Assembly (NCBI GenBank): GCA_947471105.1 | Contig: CANIYB010000002.1 | Span: forward strand, 1 to 36,020 | DNA from: Cytophagaceae bacterium | Lineage (GTDB): Bacteria > Bacteroidota > Bacteroidia > Cytophagales > Spirosomataceae | Direction of reading: 5' to 3' | Length of the DNA stretch: 36,020 nucleotides | Shown here: positions 26,737-33,961 of the stretch, piece by piece | How positions within the stretch are numbered: position 1 is the stretch's first letter | Layout: every line of letters starts with the position of its first letter | The notes under the pieces: model-generated | The model's database searches: none | The model's input: only the letters and a program-made list of their open reading frames with translations | What the model was told of the DNA's origin: nothing | Translations under genes and position numbers: made by a program

Positions 26737-27531
26737 ATGCAAGCTTATTTAGATCTACTTACCCACATAAAAGAAAAAGGCACCTATAAATCGGATCGTA
26801 CAGGCACAGGTACAACCAGTGTTTTTGGGTACCAAATGCGTTTCAATTTAGCCGATGGATTTCCATTGGTCACCACGAAAAAAACACATTTGAAATCCAT
26901 CATCTATGAATTACTTTGGTTTTTAAAAGGAGAAACAAATACGGCCTATTTAAAAGAAAACAATGTCAGTATTTGGGATGAGTGGGCAAGCCCAACGGGA
27001 GATTTAGGACCAGTATATGGCAAACAATGGCGTTCTTGGGAAGGAGCTGATGGTCAAGTCATTGACCAAATAAAAGATGTTATTCATACCTTAAAAACAA
27101 ATCCCGATTCAAGGCGAATTATCGTAAGTGCTTGGAATGTGGCCGATTTACCTAAAATGGCTCTAATGCCTTGTCACGCCTTTTTCCAATTTTACGTGGC
27201 GGATGGTAAATTATCATGCCAACTATACCAAAGGTCCGCCGATGTGTTTTTAGGTGTCCCGTTCAATATCGCTAGCTATGCGCTTTTAACGATGATGGTG
27301 GCCCAAGTTTGTGATTTAGCTTTAGGTGACTTTGTATGGACCGGTGGTGATACACACCTTTATAGCAATCACATGGAACAAGTTGACCTACAATTGACCC
27401 GTAGCCCTCGCCCATTGCCCACTATGCGAATCAATCCTGACAAGAAAGACCTACTCGATTTTGTTTTTGAAGATTTTACCTTAGAAAATTACGACCCATA
27501 TCCAGGCATTAAAGCACCTGTAGCTATTTAG
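26737..27531 (+). CDS. thyA: Thymidylate synthase
   Basis: [72 protein letters not shown]. Confidence 0.97.
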
Positions 27532-28490
27532 GCAATCAGCATTTTGATGATATCTGCAGCTGAAAATCCTTTCGATTCTGCCTTATAAGATAAAATAATA
27601 CGGTGTTGTAACACGGCTACTGCCACCTCGCGAACATCTTCCTCATTAGGAGAATATCGACCATGCATCAAAGACCTGCATTTTGCAGCCAAAATTAAAT
27701 TCTGAGAAGCGCGTGGTCCAGCACCCCAGGTGATAAATTCTTTGGTAGATTCTGCTGCCAATTCATTATCTGGTCTAGTTTTATGGACCAAGGTAACTGC
27801 CGCTTCAACCACATGATCTGAAACAGGAACACGTCTAATTAAATCTTGATAAGCTAATAAAGAACTAATCGTCAATAACGGTTTAATGTCAACATCTACC
27901 CTCGTTTGTTCCGTCATGCGAACCACATTAATTTCATCCTGAAAACTAGGGTATTCTAATTTAATCATGAATAAAAAACGATCTAATTGGGCCTCTGGTA
28001 GCGGATATGTTCCCTCCTGCTCAATCGGATTTTGAGTAGCAAAGACTAGAAAAGGTTTAGGCAGTTCAAAACTTGTCCCCGATACAGACACCGTTTCCTC
28101 TTGCATAGCTTCTAAAAGCGCTGATTGAGTTTTGGGTGGAGTCCGATTAATCTCGTCAGCCAATACTAAATTCGTAAATACAGGACCGCGATTAAATACA
28201 AAGTTGCGATTAGCATCCAAGATTTCAGATCCTATGATATCCGAAGGCATTAAATCGGGTGTAAACTGGATTCGTTTAAAATCCAAAGCGACCAATGAGG
28301 AAATGGTGTGAACTAAACGAGTCTTTGCCAAACCGGGAACTCCGACCAGCAAACAATGACCTTGACAAAATAATGCATTAAGCATTAATTCAATGGTTAA
28401 ATCTTGGCCTACTACCCTTTGATGAATAGCCGCTTTTAAAGCCTGAATGTCTTCAAAAAATGTTTCGGCAAGTTTAACGTCGTTCATCAT
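27528..28490 (-). CDS. MoxR family AAA+ ATPase
   Basis: [35 protein letters not shown] (Walker A), [21 protein letters not shown] (Walker B), [25 protein letters not shown]. Start moved from 28544 to 28490 (or 28487). Confidence 0.95.
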
Positions 28491-28492
28491 AC

Positions 28493-29869
28493 TTATTGAG
28501 AAGCTCCTCCTGATGATCCGCCAACAGTCCCAAGCGTATTGCAACTCTTAAACTCGTCATCAATGTAAATAAATACGTCCTCCTTTGCTTTTAAAAACCA
28601 TTTTTCAATCGCATCATTCTTCTTACGCGTCAAAGCAATATTTGAAATTTTCTGATAATCCTCCTTTAAGTTTGCAAAATGAGGCGGATGCTTTGCCTTA
28701 AAATACAAAATACGAACAGCACTTCGGCCGTCCTCAGTTCGGTAAGGAATAGGAGTAGAAATGGTCCCCACTTTCATGGAATCAATCGAAAAGTACAAAC
28801 CTGGTTCCATCGTTCCGTCAAAAGGAATTCGGTATGAGCGACTTCCCATATCCATAATTAACCCCCCAGCATCCTGCGTTCCCTTGTCCTGAGAATGATC
28901 ACGAGCAGCGGCATCAAACTTAATAGAATCACGTTGGATCAAAACTCGAATACTGTCTAAGTATTTAGTAGGCTCCGTTAAATCTAATTTTTGATAATCT
29001 GGTCTAAGCAAAATATGCCTGGCATGATATTCCTGTCCACGTACGTCTAATAACTGAATCATGTGAAAACCAAACTCACTTTCTACCACTTCCGACATTT
29101 GATTTGGCTTTAACTTTAAGGCAGCGGCTTCAAACGGTGCAACCATCTGGCCACGCTTAGAGAAACCTAAATCTCCTCCACGTTTACCACTTCCCAAATC
29201 CTCCGAATATAATTTCGCCAATTCTTCAAAGCTTTCCCCCTTTTCTATTCGCCTGCGGTAATCTAACAGACGAGAAATCAATTCATTTTTTTGATCTTTA
29301 TTGGGTTGGGCTAAGCGAACGATGTGTCCAACCTCAACTTCCGAAGGCAAATAGGGCAATGAGTCCGTCGGAATAGTACCAAAAAATGCAGCCACTTCCT
29401 TAGGGGTTATTTTGACATCATCTGTAATTTTGTCTTGCATTTTACGACCCGTCATTTGCTCTTTCAAATTGGCCCTCAACTCCTCTTTCATGGTTGCTAT
29501 GGGTTTGCCAAAAGCCTCCACAATATTCTTTGCAGTGCCATATTGTTGCTCCATTTGATCCATTCGAGAATTCAACTCTATATCAATACGCTTATCTTCG
29601 ACAATGACTGAGTCAATTTCAGCTTTTGCCAACATAAGTTTGTTGATTACTAATCCTTCTAAAATTTGGCAACGATCTGGAGTGTTGGCTTGACCGCTAG
29701 ATTGATATTGCTGAAACTGTTGTTCAATCTCTGATTTTAGGATATAATGGTTATCCACTTTGGCAATAATCTTATCCAATAACTGAGCCGTATTTGCTTC
29801 TTGGGCTACACTTGTGATTGAAAGTAAACAACCCACTACTCCTAAAAATAAATTCTTAATCCTCATCAT
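28493..29869 (-). CDS. SurA-like peptidyl-prolyl cis-trans isomerase (parvulin)
   Basis: Signal peptide; ILDKIIAKVDNHYILKSEIEQQ SurA N-domain; LYSEDLGSGKRGGDLGFSKRGQMVAPFEAAALKLKPNQMSEVVESEFGFHMIQLLDVRG rotamase motif. Confidence 0.92.
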   Translation of the reverse strand: MMRIKNLFLGVVGCLLSITSVAQEANTAQLLDKIIAKVDNHYILKSEIEQQFQQYQSSGQANTPDRCQILEGLVINKLMLAKAEIDSVIVEDKRIDIELNSRMDQMEQQYGTAKNIVEAFGKPIATMKEELRANLKEQMTGRKMQDKITDDVKITPKEVAAFFGTIPTDSLPYLPSEVEVGHIVRLAQPNKDQKNELISRLLDYRRRIEKGESFEELAKLYSEDLGSGKRGGDLGFSKRGQMVAPFEAAALKLKPNQMSEVVESEFGFHMIQLLDVRGQEYHARHILLRPDYQKLDLTEPTKYLDSIRVLIQRDSIKFDAAARDHSQDKGTQDAGGLIMDMGSRSYRIPFDGTMEPGLYFSIDSMKVGTISTPIPYRTEDGRSAVRILYFKAKHPPHFANLKEDYQKISNIALTRKKNDAIEKWFLKAKEDVFIYIDDEFKSCNTLGTVGGSSGGASQ

Positions 29870-29871
29870 GT

Positions 29872-32136
29872 CTATTGCATTATTTTATTTAACTCATCCT
29901 CTTGTCGGATGATAGGAAAACTCTTTTTCAAATTTAATATCCAATTTTGTTCTAATTCAGCCTGTAAATTCCTAATAATTGAACTTCTAGCCTCAGAAAA
30001 ACTCTTTAAACGCTCTTTCTCAATATTTTTAACGTCAACAAAATAATATCTACCCGCTTTTTCGAAATTCTTTTTACCTACTTCCCACGGAATACTATCC
30101 AATATCGCATTTTCTCCACGTTTGAAAAAACCTTCTTCTGCCAAAAGACTCATGGGCTTAATGGCATTAAACCGTTTAACCACGTCTTCCATCGATTGAG
30201 AATAGAACTTTAATGAAACACGCGAATTTTTAGTTTTATCCGTTTTCGAAGCAGACTTCAAATTTCCCTCTAATTTTTCAATAATCCGAGTGTTTGCAAT
30301 TCCCTTTTTATTTAAATAAGAGGCAACTCGATTAATTCTTCCCTGAGCCAGACTATCCAATTCACTCGAATCATGATGTCCAGAAATTTCAATGACATAC
30401 TCTCGATTCTTGGCCATTAATATAAATAATTCTTGTAAAAGTTTGGTAGACGCTTCGGTCAATTGACTTTGTCCAAACTGAAACAAAAGATCAGGAAACC
30501 GCTTGTTCATCGGATAGGGCGCCGACTTCAATAACTCTAGAGCATCTGAGAGTGTCTTTGCATTATCTGCAATGACCAATTTAGCTTCCAAACGACTTGG
30601 CATCGTGAACTTTAACGCATTGGAAGCATAGTATTTTTGTTGGCGTACCGAATCTAACGAAGGCTCAAAAATCTCCTTTTCCGTAATTTTACTATACAAG
30701 CTGCCCTCATAGAATTCCTTCATTTGATCCTTAAAGGCAGGGTATTTTACTTCCAAATGTTGTTCCTCCGCCTGAAGTGTAAATAAATCGATAAATTGTT
30801 CCAACCAAAATTCTTCGGAGATGGTCGGCAAATACCCCAAAGCCTTAATCTTTTTTCTTTGTTGGTCTACGATAAAAGCATAAAACTCCTTAATCGTAAA
30901 AGACTTTTGGTCGATGGAGAATAATGGAAAATTAAGATATACCTCGTCACCTACACGATCCTGAGCAAAGCGCTCTAGAGCTACCTTTTTATTTGCCTCA
31001 TTAATCAAAACTTTGTTTTCTTGTCGGACACGCTTCATGAAAGAAGCCTTTATGATGGCACTACGTTCAGAATCAGTCAACACCTTTTGCCTTAAATATT
31101 CAGCCATCTCCTCATAACTTAATATGGGCTTCTTGTCTAATAATTTAAAGATTTGCCAACCTAAATTGGTCCGAATAGGTTCTGTATAATCACCCAAACG
31201 TTGGATATTAAATAATTTATCTTGTAGTTCTTCTGATAATTCAGACGAAGAATACCAACGCCTTAATTCGCCTCCTCTACCTTTCGAATAGGGATCTTCT
31301 GAAAAGTTTCTACAAATTGTTTCAAATGTATCATCCCCCTTCACTAAATATTTTTGTACCTGATCGATCTTATTTTTTGCCTCCACTTGCAAATTGGTAG
31401 CTGCCGTTACAGGTACTGAAATTAATATATGAGCTAAACGGATTTTACCTTGATTAGGCCGAATATCTAAGACTTCGATGATGTGATATCCAGTCTCAGT
31501 CCGAATAATACCCGAATGCTGACCCTTCTCCAGGGAATAAATTGCATTTTCAAGGGGATATTTAGTTTGAAGGATGGAGACATACCCTAATAATCCTCCC
31601 CTAGGCGCCGACATATCATCCTCAGAAAACTTAGTCGCTAATACTTTAAAATCTTCCCCAGCGACAAGTTTTTTGCGAATGTTGTCAATTTTCTGAAAGG
31701 CCAACAAAGTATCCGCGGCACTAGGATTGATGGGTAATTTCACGAGAATCTGAGCAATCTGCTTCTCAAATTTAGATCGCTGATAGGCTTCCCTTACCAA
31801 GGTCTCTAATTGATCATTATCGATCAAGTATGGACTGGCTAATTCCTTCCTAAAACTTTGATATTCATCTTGAAATCCAGGAGATGAAGGTATTTTAGCT
31901 TCCTCAGCAGCTAATATCTTGATTTGATAATCAATGTAATCCGACAAAAACTTTTGCTTATTCCCCGATTTGATACTATCACTCTCTAATAATCTTCTGT
32001 AATCTTTCTCAAAAAGGGAGGAACTGATTTTCTTATTTCCAATTTGTAGCACAAAATCAGATTGAGCCTTAGACAAATTAGACAACAAGCCCACTCCGAA
32101 AAACAACAAAATTAAAAAACGTATTTTTAAACGCAT
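29872..32136 (-). CDS. Parvulin-type peptidyl-prolyl isomerase with two rotamase-like regions and an internal OmpA-like domain
   Basis: FSEDDMSAPRGGLLGYVS...SGIIRTETGYHIIEVLDIRP and FSEDPYSKGRGGELRRW...TEPIRTNLGWQIFKLLDKKP (rotamase); residues ~550-646 look OmpA-like. Confidence 0.88.
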   Translation of the reverse strand: MRLKIRFLILLFFGVGLLSNLSKAQSDFVLQIGNKKISSSLFEKDYRRLLESDSIKSGNKQKFLSDYIDYQIKILAAEEAKIPSSPGFQDEYQSFRKELASPYLIDNDQLETLVREAYQRSKFEKQIAQILVKLPINPSAADTLLAFQKIDNIRKKLVAGEDFKVLATKFSEDDMSAPRGGLLGYVSILQTKYPLENAIYSLEKGQHSGIIRTETGYHIIEVLDIRPNQGKIRLAHILISVPVTAATNLQVEAKNKIDQVQKYLVKGDDTFETICRNFSEDPYSKGRGGELRRWYSSSELSEELQDKLFNIQRLGDYTEPIRTNLGWQIFKLLDKKPILSYEEMAEYLRQKVLTDSERSAIIKASFMKRVRQENKVLINEANKKVALERFAQDRVGDEVYLNFPLFSIDQKSFTIKEFYAFIVDQQRKKIKALGYLPTISEEFWLEQFIDLFTLQAEEQHLEVKYPAFKDQMKEFYEGSLYSKITEKEIFEPSLDSVRQQKYYASNALKFTMPSRLEAKLVIADNAKTLSDALELLKSAPYPMNKRFPDLLFQFGQSQLTEASTKLLQELFILMAKNREYVIEISGHHDSSELDSLAQGRINRVASYLNKKGIANTRIIEKLEGNLKSASKTDKTKNSRVSLKFYSQSMEDVVKRFNAIKPMSLLAEEGFFKRGENAILDSIPWEVGKKNFEKAGRYYFVDVKNIEKERLKSFSEARSSIIRNLQAELEQNWILNLKKSFPIIRQEDELNKIMQ

Positions 32137-32210: not shown

Positions 32211-32915
32211 CTATTTGACAATATCCTTGACCTTTATTTCATACCCAAATTCATAATGAAAGGAATTTATGGCTGAATCTTTGCCCTTCCATTGAATGCG
32301 TTTAATTCTGGGTCTATTTTGAAGAGACAAATCTTCCCAACTCCATACCCCTTCAGAAATACCTAATAAATCATCTCGATCTAAAGTGGCTAAAAAATCC
32401 AATCCCACAGAACTTAATCTCGTGCCCCACAAAAACCAACCTAATGGATTACTTGCAGAACTCCACTCAATGAATGTCAAGGGGATTTGAAGCGCATTAC
32501 TGTACGTGCTTACTTTGTTCAAAATTTTTTGACTCTTTGAATAGTCATCTATTTCCCAAAGGGCGATTTGTATGCCTAATTTTTGTCCTTCTTTTAACTC
32601 TAAACGTAAACCAGGTATTGAATCCAAATTCATTTTAGCCCCTTTTTTAACCTTCCCTAGGTAATGGGTTCCGTGTGCTGCTTTAACTACGGAATCTTTT
32701 TCCACCACACTGAGACTATAGGTGACGAACAACTCATCATATCGCGTTAAATTTTCTTGTATGTCGTGAGCGATTAAAGGCTTAAGTAGTAGATCAACTT
32801 GCTTGCTTTTCAGCTGAACCTTCTTAGTAGCTACATTTTCTTGTGGGGACAATCGTCTACCTGAATGACACCCGAACAGGCAAACAGCAAACATGAGTAT
32901 ACTAAATTTATGCAT
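32211..32915 (-). CDS. Putative lipoprotein, uncharacterised
   Basis: Lipobox MHKFSILMFAVCLFGCHSG; TAATG stop/start overlap with the upstream gene. Start moved from 32969 to 32915. Confidence 0.75.
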   Translation of the reverse strand: MHKFSILMFAVCLFGCHSGRRLSPQENVATKKVQLKSKQVDLLLKPLIAHDIQENLTRYDELFVTYSLSVVEKDSVVKAAHGTHYLGKVKKGAKMNLDSIPGLRLELKEGQKLGIQIALWEIDDYSKSQKILNKVSTYSNALQIPLTFIEWSSASNPLGWFLWGTRLSSVGLDFLATLDRDDLLGISEGVWSWEDLSLQNRPRIKRIQWKGKDSAINSFHYEFGYEIKVKDIVK

Positions 32916-33961
32916 TAATTTCCCTGAGGTTCTTGTTGGGTCAAGCAATGAAAACTTCCTTGCCCCCAAATAATTTTTTTGGCCGATAAACCTATAACGG
33001 GTCTATCGGTAAATAATTGTGTTAAGAGATTTAAAGCGATCTCATCCTGAGGACAATCAAATGTGGGAACGAGAACCCCTGCATTGGAAATGTAAAAATT
33101 GGCATACGAACCAGGCGCCCTAAATTCATCTATGATCACTGGATCCGGCATAGGCAATTCAACTATGGTCAGCTGCTTGCCTGAAATTAAACGCATTTGA
33201 GATAATTCTTTTAAGTTTTTCGCTAACACCTCATGATTTTCATCGGATTTTTTAGGCTCCACCATGGCGATAACAGTATCTGAATTTACAAACCGAACCG
33301 TATCATCAATGTGACCATCCGTATCATCTCCGACAATCCCATCACTCACCCAAAGCACTTGGTCCACCCCATAATACTCCATCAGGTATTCTTCGATTTG
33401 ACCTTGGTTTAAATGAGGGTTTCTGTTGGCATTCAGCAAACAAGACCTACTCGTCAATAAACTTCCCGCTCCATTAAACTCAACGGATCCGCCTTCCATG
33501 ATAATTTTGGGCTGGGCAAACGGCAAACCTAACGATTGAGCGATCCCAACAGGTATTTTATTATCATCATCAAATGGCGGATATTTCCCACCCCAAGCAT
33601 TATATTCCCAATCTACAATCATCCGAGAATCTGTATGCTGATGAATTAAAAATGCAGGACCATGATCTCGACACCATGCATCATTCGTTGGTCGAATATG
33701 GCATTTAATTTGATCTGGACTTATCCCATATAAAGGTAATCGGCCCTCAATAAACTCTTTTAACGCAAGATCATGGACATTGATATTCACTAGCTCTCCT
33801 ACCGAAATCGCCTTAATCAACTGAAAATATTCAGGATACATGTCAGGCAATTTTTCTGCTTGCCATGAATGGTCGTTATGTGGAAAAGTAATCCAAGTGG
33901 CCTTATGAGGATGCCATTCGGGAGGAAAATAATATCCTTGTGATTTTGGAGTCATGCCCAT
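32915..33961 (-). CDS. Agmatine deiminase / peptidylarginine deiminase family protein
   Basis: PPEWHPHKATWITFPHNDHSW, RPTNDAWCRDHGPAFL, MEGGSVEFNGAGSLLTSRSCLLNANRN, GDDTDGHIDDTVRFV, GQGSFHCLTQQEP with C-terminal catalytic Cys. Confidence 0.92.
   Translation of the reverse strand: MGMTPKSQGYYFPPEWHPHKATWITFPHNDHSWQAEKLPDMYPEYFQLIKAISVGELVNINVHDLALKEFIEGRLPLYGISPDQIKCHIRPTNDAWCRDHGPAFLIHQHTDSRMIVDWEYNAWGGKYPPFDDDNKIPVGIAQSLGLPFAQPKIIMEGGSVEFNGAGSLLTSRSCLLNANRNPHLNQGQIEEYLMEYYGVDQVLWVSDGIVGDDTDGHIDDTVRFVNSDTVIAMVEPKKSDENHEVLAKNLKELSQMRLISGKQLTIVELPMPDPVIIDEFRAPGSYANFYISNAGVLVPTFDCPQDEIALNLLTQLFTDRPVIGLSAKKIIWGQGSFHCLTQQEPQGN

Follow-up and report, generated by a model that had tools for sequence, protein, structure and literature searches.

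A predicted OmpA-like domain nested in a degenerate parvulin of a SurA/PrsA-kind chaperone from Cytophagales

OmpA domains and parvulin chaperones are both known kinds of protein, and it is their nested combination that marks the locus described here. In a 36,020-nucleotide stretch of DNA from a Cytophagaceae bacterium (hereafter the window), a gene for a multi-domain peptidyl-prolyl isomerase (PPIase) carries an OmpA-like domain in its interior, which raises the question of what such a domain might be doing inside a chaperone and whether it could hold the cell wall. The route of outer-membrane proteins (OMPs) through the wall to the unusual BAM complex of Bacteroidota is an active question, and if a chaperone carried an envelope-docking module of its own, where this OMP step takes place could be tested. 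The nested OmpA-in-parvulin architecture, its order-wide retention and its altered motif were undescribed in the open-access literature that we searched.

The gene, its protein and its neighbours

The PPIase gene and the parts of its product were assigned as follows.

29872..32136, minus strand: PPIase gene, an open reading frame for a periplasmic multi-domain parvulin/SurA-type chaperone of 754 aa
32065..32136, minus strand: signal peptide, residues 1-24, without a lipobox (from sequence)
31780..32064, minus strand: putative SurA_N-like chaperone segment, residues 25-119 (weak Pfam SurA_N_3; place relative to the parvulin domains)
31453..31779, minus strand: parvulin (rotamase) domain 1, residues ~120-228 (PF13616 at 124-225)
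31111..31452, minus strand: parvulin (rotamase) domain 2, residues ~229-342 (PF00639 at 236-333)
30607..30984, minus strand: predicted second helical SurA_N-like chaperone unit, residues ~385-510 (AF2 helices; PEB4/CBF2/PrsA chain matches; hhalign)
30511..30606, minus strand: predicted third, degenerate parvulin, beta1-alpha1, residues ~511-542 (AF2; PF13145 in OmpA-less homologues)
30193..30510, minus strand: inserted OmpA-like domain, residues ~543-648 (PF00691; AF2; alignment with OmpA-less homologues)
30013..30192, minus strand: predicted third parvulin, alpha2 to beta4, residues ~649-708 (AF2; alignment with OmpA-less homologues)
29875..30012, minus strand: long C-terminal helix, residues ~709-754 (AF2 helix 717-739; conserved EARGxVIxDYQxxLExxW)

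The protein matches the rotamase families strongly (PF00639, E 4.5e-40; also PF13616), and possesses the two PF00639/PF13616 domains and the signal peptide by which SurA/PrsA-type proteins are recognized. Against the E. coli SurA equivalog NF008038 it scores 90.7 bits, where the NCBIfam cut-off demands 394, and the SurA_N_3 match of segment 25-119 is weak (Pfam, E 0.11). The signal peptide of the window's protein is an ordinary one; in a pattern scan many of its orthologs in the family and order showed a lipobox-like pattern, and these would be membrane-anchored. In the window's genus parvulin domains 1 and 2 (31111-31779, minus strand) each lack one of the two characteristic histidines, the regions reading AQIL...GYHII in domain 1 and AHIL...GWQIF in domain 2, and distant orthologs retain both; the loss suggests that isomerase activity in this genus may be weak. 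In one genome of the family (G092:C26:41174-43431) the gene lies in two overlapping frames with a break at residue 539, just upstream of the OmpA domain, which is either a real split or a sequencing frameshift.

Two further genes complete the cluster.

28493..29869, minus strand: next gene, SurA-like PPIase of 458 aa (PF00639, E 1.6e-32; SurA_N, E 8e-7)
27528..28544, minus strand: third gene of the cluster, MoxR-type AAA ATPase (from sequence)

The 754-aa PPIase gene is the first of a Bacteroidota operon that also contains SurA and MoxR. Among the loci examined, the ortholog has SurA downstream in 114 and MoxR in 72, several loci being too short to show MoxR, and much of the phylum conserves the cluster of PPIase, a ~290-aa SurA_N-like lipoprotein gene, SurA and MoxR. 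The parvulin-chaperone context proposed in an earlier, sequence-only reading of the window is supported, as is its OMP-biogenesis setting, SurA being the very next gene, and gene context and family together point to a putative role of the 754-aa protein in OMP biogenesis. In B. thetaiotaomicron, Bt3848, called SurA, co-purifies with BamA (PMC12578637). We also considered whether the 754-aa PPIase could be one of the PPI-fold lipoproteins of BAM (BamM/J/K), but rejected this, as these are described as surface lipoproteins (PMC12611786, PMC12578637). In most of the Bacteroidota examined (loci L111, L071, L145) the ~290-aa lipoprotein gene separates the two PPIase genes; the window's family lacks it, and SurA follows the PPIase gene directly (29869-29875, minus strand). 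Upstream (32211-32969, minus strand) is a gene for a probable lipoprotein of 252 aa with no significant Pfam match, which stays beside the PPIase gene within the genus and, weakly, in some of the family.

The nested domain and its host fold

The Pfam OmpA family (PF00691) matches residues 551-636 of the whole protein with E 2.2e-9 and 38.0 bits (curated cut-off 27.2), and the cut-out piece alone with E 4.3e-11. An AF2 model of residues 385-754, built from an alignment of 83 homologues, has a mean pLDDT of 95.5 and ~97 over the OmpA domain. Foldseek matched the OmpA part of this model to E. coli Pal (1oap; rmsd 1.7 Å, TM 0.80) and A. baumannii Pal (4g4w; TM 0.83), as well as to solved PorE, OmpA and MotB domains, and the best PDB match of an order-wide profile of the insert was PorE. 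In the predicted structure residues ~543-648 have the OmpA/Pal fold, and the OmpA-like domain claimed by the sequence-only reading is upheld by both the above-threshold Pfam match and the Pal/OmpA fold of the model. Its coordinates (residue 550 at base 30489 and residue 646 at base 30199, minus strand) and quoted sequence were exact, and the two preceding rotamase regions (PF00639, PF13616) and the tail of ~100 aa after the domain are present as described.

That the domain is an internal insertion was likewise correct: alignment with ~30 OmpA-less homologues gives a clean insertion of ~105 residues at ~543-648, and an Aquimarina homologue lacks exactly the OmpA stretch. What that reading had overlooked is the host of the insertion, a third, degenerate parvulin. 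The elements of the AF2 model run strand 515-523, helix 526-535, the OmpA domain, helix 649-659 and strands 664-672, 687-693 and 696-706, so that in the model the insert sits between alpha1 and alpha2 of a third parvulin fold. Profile-profile comparison (hhalign) of this domain with parvulin domains 1 and 2 detected no kinship, and its assignment therefore stands on Pfam and structure. PF13145 (Rotamase_2) is found in the C-half of 22/32 OmpA-less homologues (best E 5.5e-9), and an AF2 model of one such C-half (pLDDT 91.2) matches PEB4 in Foldseek (E 1.9e-6, probability 1.00), its whole-chain matches being PEB4, H. pylori CBF2 and PrsA (E 1.9e-6 and worse); the chain-level TM is low (0.2-0.3), which probably reflects domain arrangement. 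Together the whole-chain matches and PF13145 point to the C-half as a second SurA/PEB4-like unit, predicted to consist of a helical chaperone part, the degenerate parvulin and the long C-terminal helix. Comparison by hhalign of the N-terminal segment with the linker that forms the SurA_N-like unit (~385-510) gave prob 54% and E 1.3e-4. At four other loci (L135, L136, L137 and L138) unrelated Lys/Arg-rich, helical-looking inserts of ~60-80 residues occupy about the same place, from which this parvulin loop seems to be generally tolerant of insertions.

Distribution and origin of the insertion

The PPIase ortholog was found full-length in 120 of 121 genomes of the window's family, with the insert present in every family member read. 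Within the order, 69 of 77 complete orthologs match to the end of the profile, the remaining 8 genomes stopping before the insert (families f3, f15 and f18). Elsewhere in the class the match ends before the insert in all genomes except one (G225), making these relatives natural controls, and among the genomes sampled from the rest of the phylum an OmpA-like insert occurs only in family f84 (PF00691, E 1.4e-8 and 3.7e-4). The OmpA insertion is typical of one order and almost absent elsewhere in the phylum.

In a tree of the host protein with the insert columns left out, the proteins of the order form one region. Family f3 is nested among OmpA-bearing proteins, and its lack of the insert looks like a loss. 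Family f84 falls far off, within a clade that has full support and whose other proteins lack OmpA, and its two examples, from another class (L132, L133), carry the insert after alpha2 of the third parvulin and not before it. The tree of OmpA domains did not separate the f84 inserts from those of the order: the branch that sets ordinary domains apart leaves the two together. Because of the host tree and the different insertion point we consider the f84 insertion probably independent, giving at least two insertions in the phylum.

The exceptional genome, G225, is classified outside the order and carries an OmpA insert at the same site (L097:1-1600) with the full canonical motif HTDSKGTDQRNMNLSKKRA. 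This insert groups with CHU_0125/PorE domains (100/98), its host protein falls in the clade of the order, and a single clade uniting it with the order's inserts was not rejected (AU p 0.16). A wholly independent insertion in this genome was given up on the latter two grounds, and replacement, retention of the old motif and gene transfer are all compatible with its position. Since the canonical motif is complete in the G225 insert, a wall-binding form of the nested architecture probably exists.

Pocket residues and readings of the insert

The OmpA pocket motif is TD(x)7NxxLSxxRA, in which the Asp, Asn and Arg are the most critical residues (PMC5104382). A. baumannii OmpA requires D271 and R286 for diaminopimelate (DAP) binding (PMC6572160), and TagL requires Asn494, Leu497 and Arg501 for wall binding, which mutation of the Asn or Arg abolishes (PMC8253398). 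We compared these positions in 33 order-level inserts, in a larger, family-heavy sample of inserts (n=87) and in a reference set of 35 ordinary OmpA domains taken from the window's genome and five other genomes.

30370..30372, minus strand: Asp589, the GHxD Asp; variable (18/33 order-level, 64/87 larger sample)
30361..30363, minus strand: Glu592; near-invariant (30/33 order-level; 86/87 plus one Asp in the larger sample)
30337..30339, minus strand: Arg600, the LSxxR Arg; invariant (33/33 and 87/87)

The ordinary domains possess the Asn in 35/35, the Arg in 35/35 and the Asp in 32/35 cases, and the window's genome has five further OmpA domains, all of which retain the ordinary motif, Asn included. 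In contrast, the motif Asn is present in none of the 33 order-level inserts. Asp589 and Arg600 both occur in the window's protein, as the sequence-only reading had it, with 10 residues between them, and the loop that it called about 4 residues shorter is indeed so: the Asp-Arg spacing is 10 in 28/33 order-level inserts versus 14 in 33/35 ordinary domains. Lack of conservation of the Asp and Arg in orthologues, which that reading named as grounds for refutation, applies to the Asp and not to the Arg, and a congener with 95% identity over the whole protein has Asn in place of Asp589 (L006/L017, GHHNASE). The terminal NRR is also eroded, with the last Arg retained in 16/33 order-level inserts. 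On the other hand, Glu592, three residues past the Asp position and absent from ordinary OmpA domains, occupies a column whose conservation is second only to that of the Arg within the insert. The insert thus has neither the conserved Asp and Arg pair nor the motif Asn of a DAP-binding domain, and the supposition that the DAP site is intact is not borne out.

These residues bear on four readings of the insert. Chance resemblance, or an artefact of assembly or annotation, we regard as practically negligible: nothing was found in its favour, and it is ruled out by the E value of the piece (4e-11), the unbroken reading frame and the recurrence of the architecture in well over 100 independent genomes. 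A tentative possibility is a peptidoglycan-tethered foldase, in which the insert would anchor the chaperone to the wall through standard binding of meso-diaminopimelate. The fold and the Asp589 and Arg600 of the window's protein speak for it, as does the complete motif of the G225 insert, and the lipid anchors of many orthologs would make a Pal-like bridge from membrane to wall. However, the missing Asn and the shorter loop weigh against standard DAP binding, as do the inconstant Asp (lost even in the close congener), the TagL mutants and an altered motif in Treponema pallidum Tp0624, where Asp is replaced by Ala and Asn by Glu/Gln and DAP is not bound (PMC5104382). Of the wall-tethered PPIase proposed earlier, the OmpA fold, the insertion and the chaperone setting stand and the intact DAP site does not, which leaves a putative tether plausible. 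We think it rather improbable that the OmpA fold is a mere structural spacer, or a protein-protein interface without a small-molecule pocket, in which Glu592 and Arg600 would form an internal salt bridge shaping the shortened loop; most pocket residues are lost, including Asn and NRR, and the absence of the insert from f3, f15 and f18 indicates that it is not essential everywhere, but exactly two charged pocket residues are near-absolutely conserved in otherwise fast-evolving domains. That the Arg and Glu are conserved although the rest of the domain diverges strongly is an argument for a working pocket, and the near-invariance of Glu alongside erosion of Asn and Asp for one that has been rebuilt rather than merely lost.

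Most likely, then, the insert descends from a PorE/Pal-type cell-wall binder and serves as a docking module whose pocket has been remodelled, and we favour, with moderate confidence, a SurA/PrsA-kind OMP chaperone that carries this module nested within it. Such a chaperone, soluble here and often lipid-anchored in relatives, would serve OMP biogenesis in the periplasm alongside the SurA of the adjacent gene, its C-half being a second chaperone unit whose parvulin has presumably lost its catalytic sequence. In an ancestor of the order a Pal/PorE-type OmpA domain would have been inserted between helices 1 and 2 of this dead parvulin, where it probably serves for docking, fixing the chaperone at a single envelope site or steering it there. 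As the carboxylate-binding Arg has been kept, the DAP-gripping Asn and often the Asp lost, and the Glu gained, the rebuilt pocket may hold either peptidoglycan in a changed mode or another ligand. What the analysis establishes is the architecture, insertion site, distribution, residue conservation and gene cluster, together with the predicted fold; docking, client proteins and the part played in OMP biogenesis are inferred. More speculatively, the threading of a wall-binding domain into a periplasmic chaperone's dead isomerase domain might have happened repeatedly, on at least two occasions in the phylum, and in Cytophagales a new Glu/Arg pocket might hold a new ligand and fix an OMP chaperone at a defined envelope site, although we would call this whole scenario unlikely as yet. 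The insert offers an example of a cell-wall-binding fold being rebuilt, and its two nearly invariant residues point to a candidate ligand site.

Comparison with the closest known systems places these features in context. With the PF00691 family (Pal, the PorE C-terminal domain 6top, and A. baumannii OmpA 3td3) the insert shares the beta-alpha-beta-alpha-beta fold, an above-cut-off Pfam match and the Arg of the LSxxR helix; it differs in being nested and not C-terminal, in its loop shorter by 4 residues, and in its absent Asn, variable Asp and new near-invariant Glu. The CHU_0125/PorE family (NF053607, NF052230), to whose OmpA domain the G225 insert is most closely related, has the canonical cell-wall motif in a C-terminal placement and no chaperone domains. 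Tp0624 is likewise a periplasmic protein of modular build whose OmpA-like domain has diverged, with an altered DAP motif and a retained Arg, but it lacks parvulin domains and carries the OmpA-like domain at its C-terminus (PMC5104382). The window's PPIase resembles SurA, PrsA, PEB4 (Cj0596) and Cj1289 in its parvulin units, putative SurA_N-like units and signal peptide, and its gene clusters with SurA; unlike these proteins, it comprises two tandem chaperone units with a degenerate, OmpA-split third parvulin. The insert-in-flap domains of FKBP-type chaperones are likewise additional domains within a prolyl-isomerase fold, and they alter what the chaperone holds; there the host is an FKBP fold and not a parvulin, and the insert is not OmpA-like.
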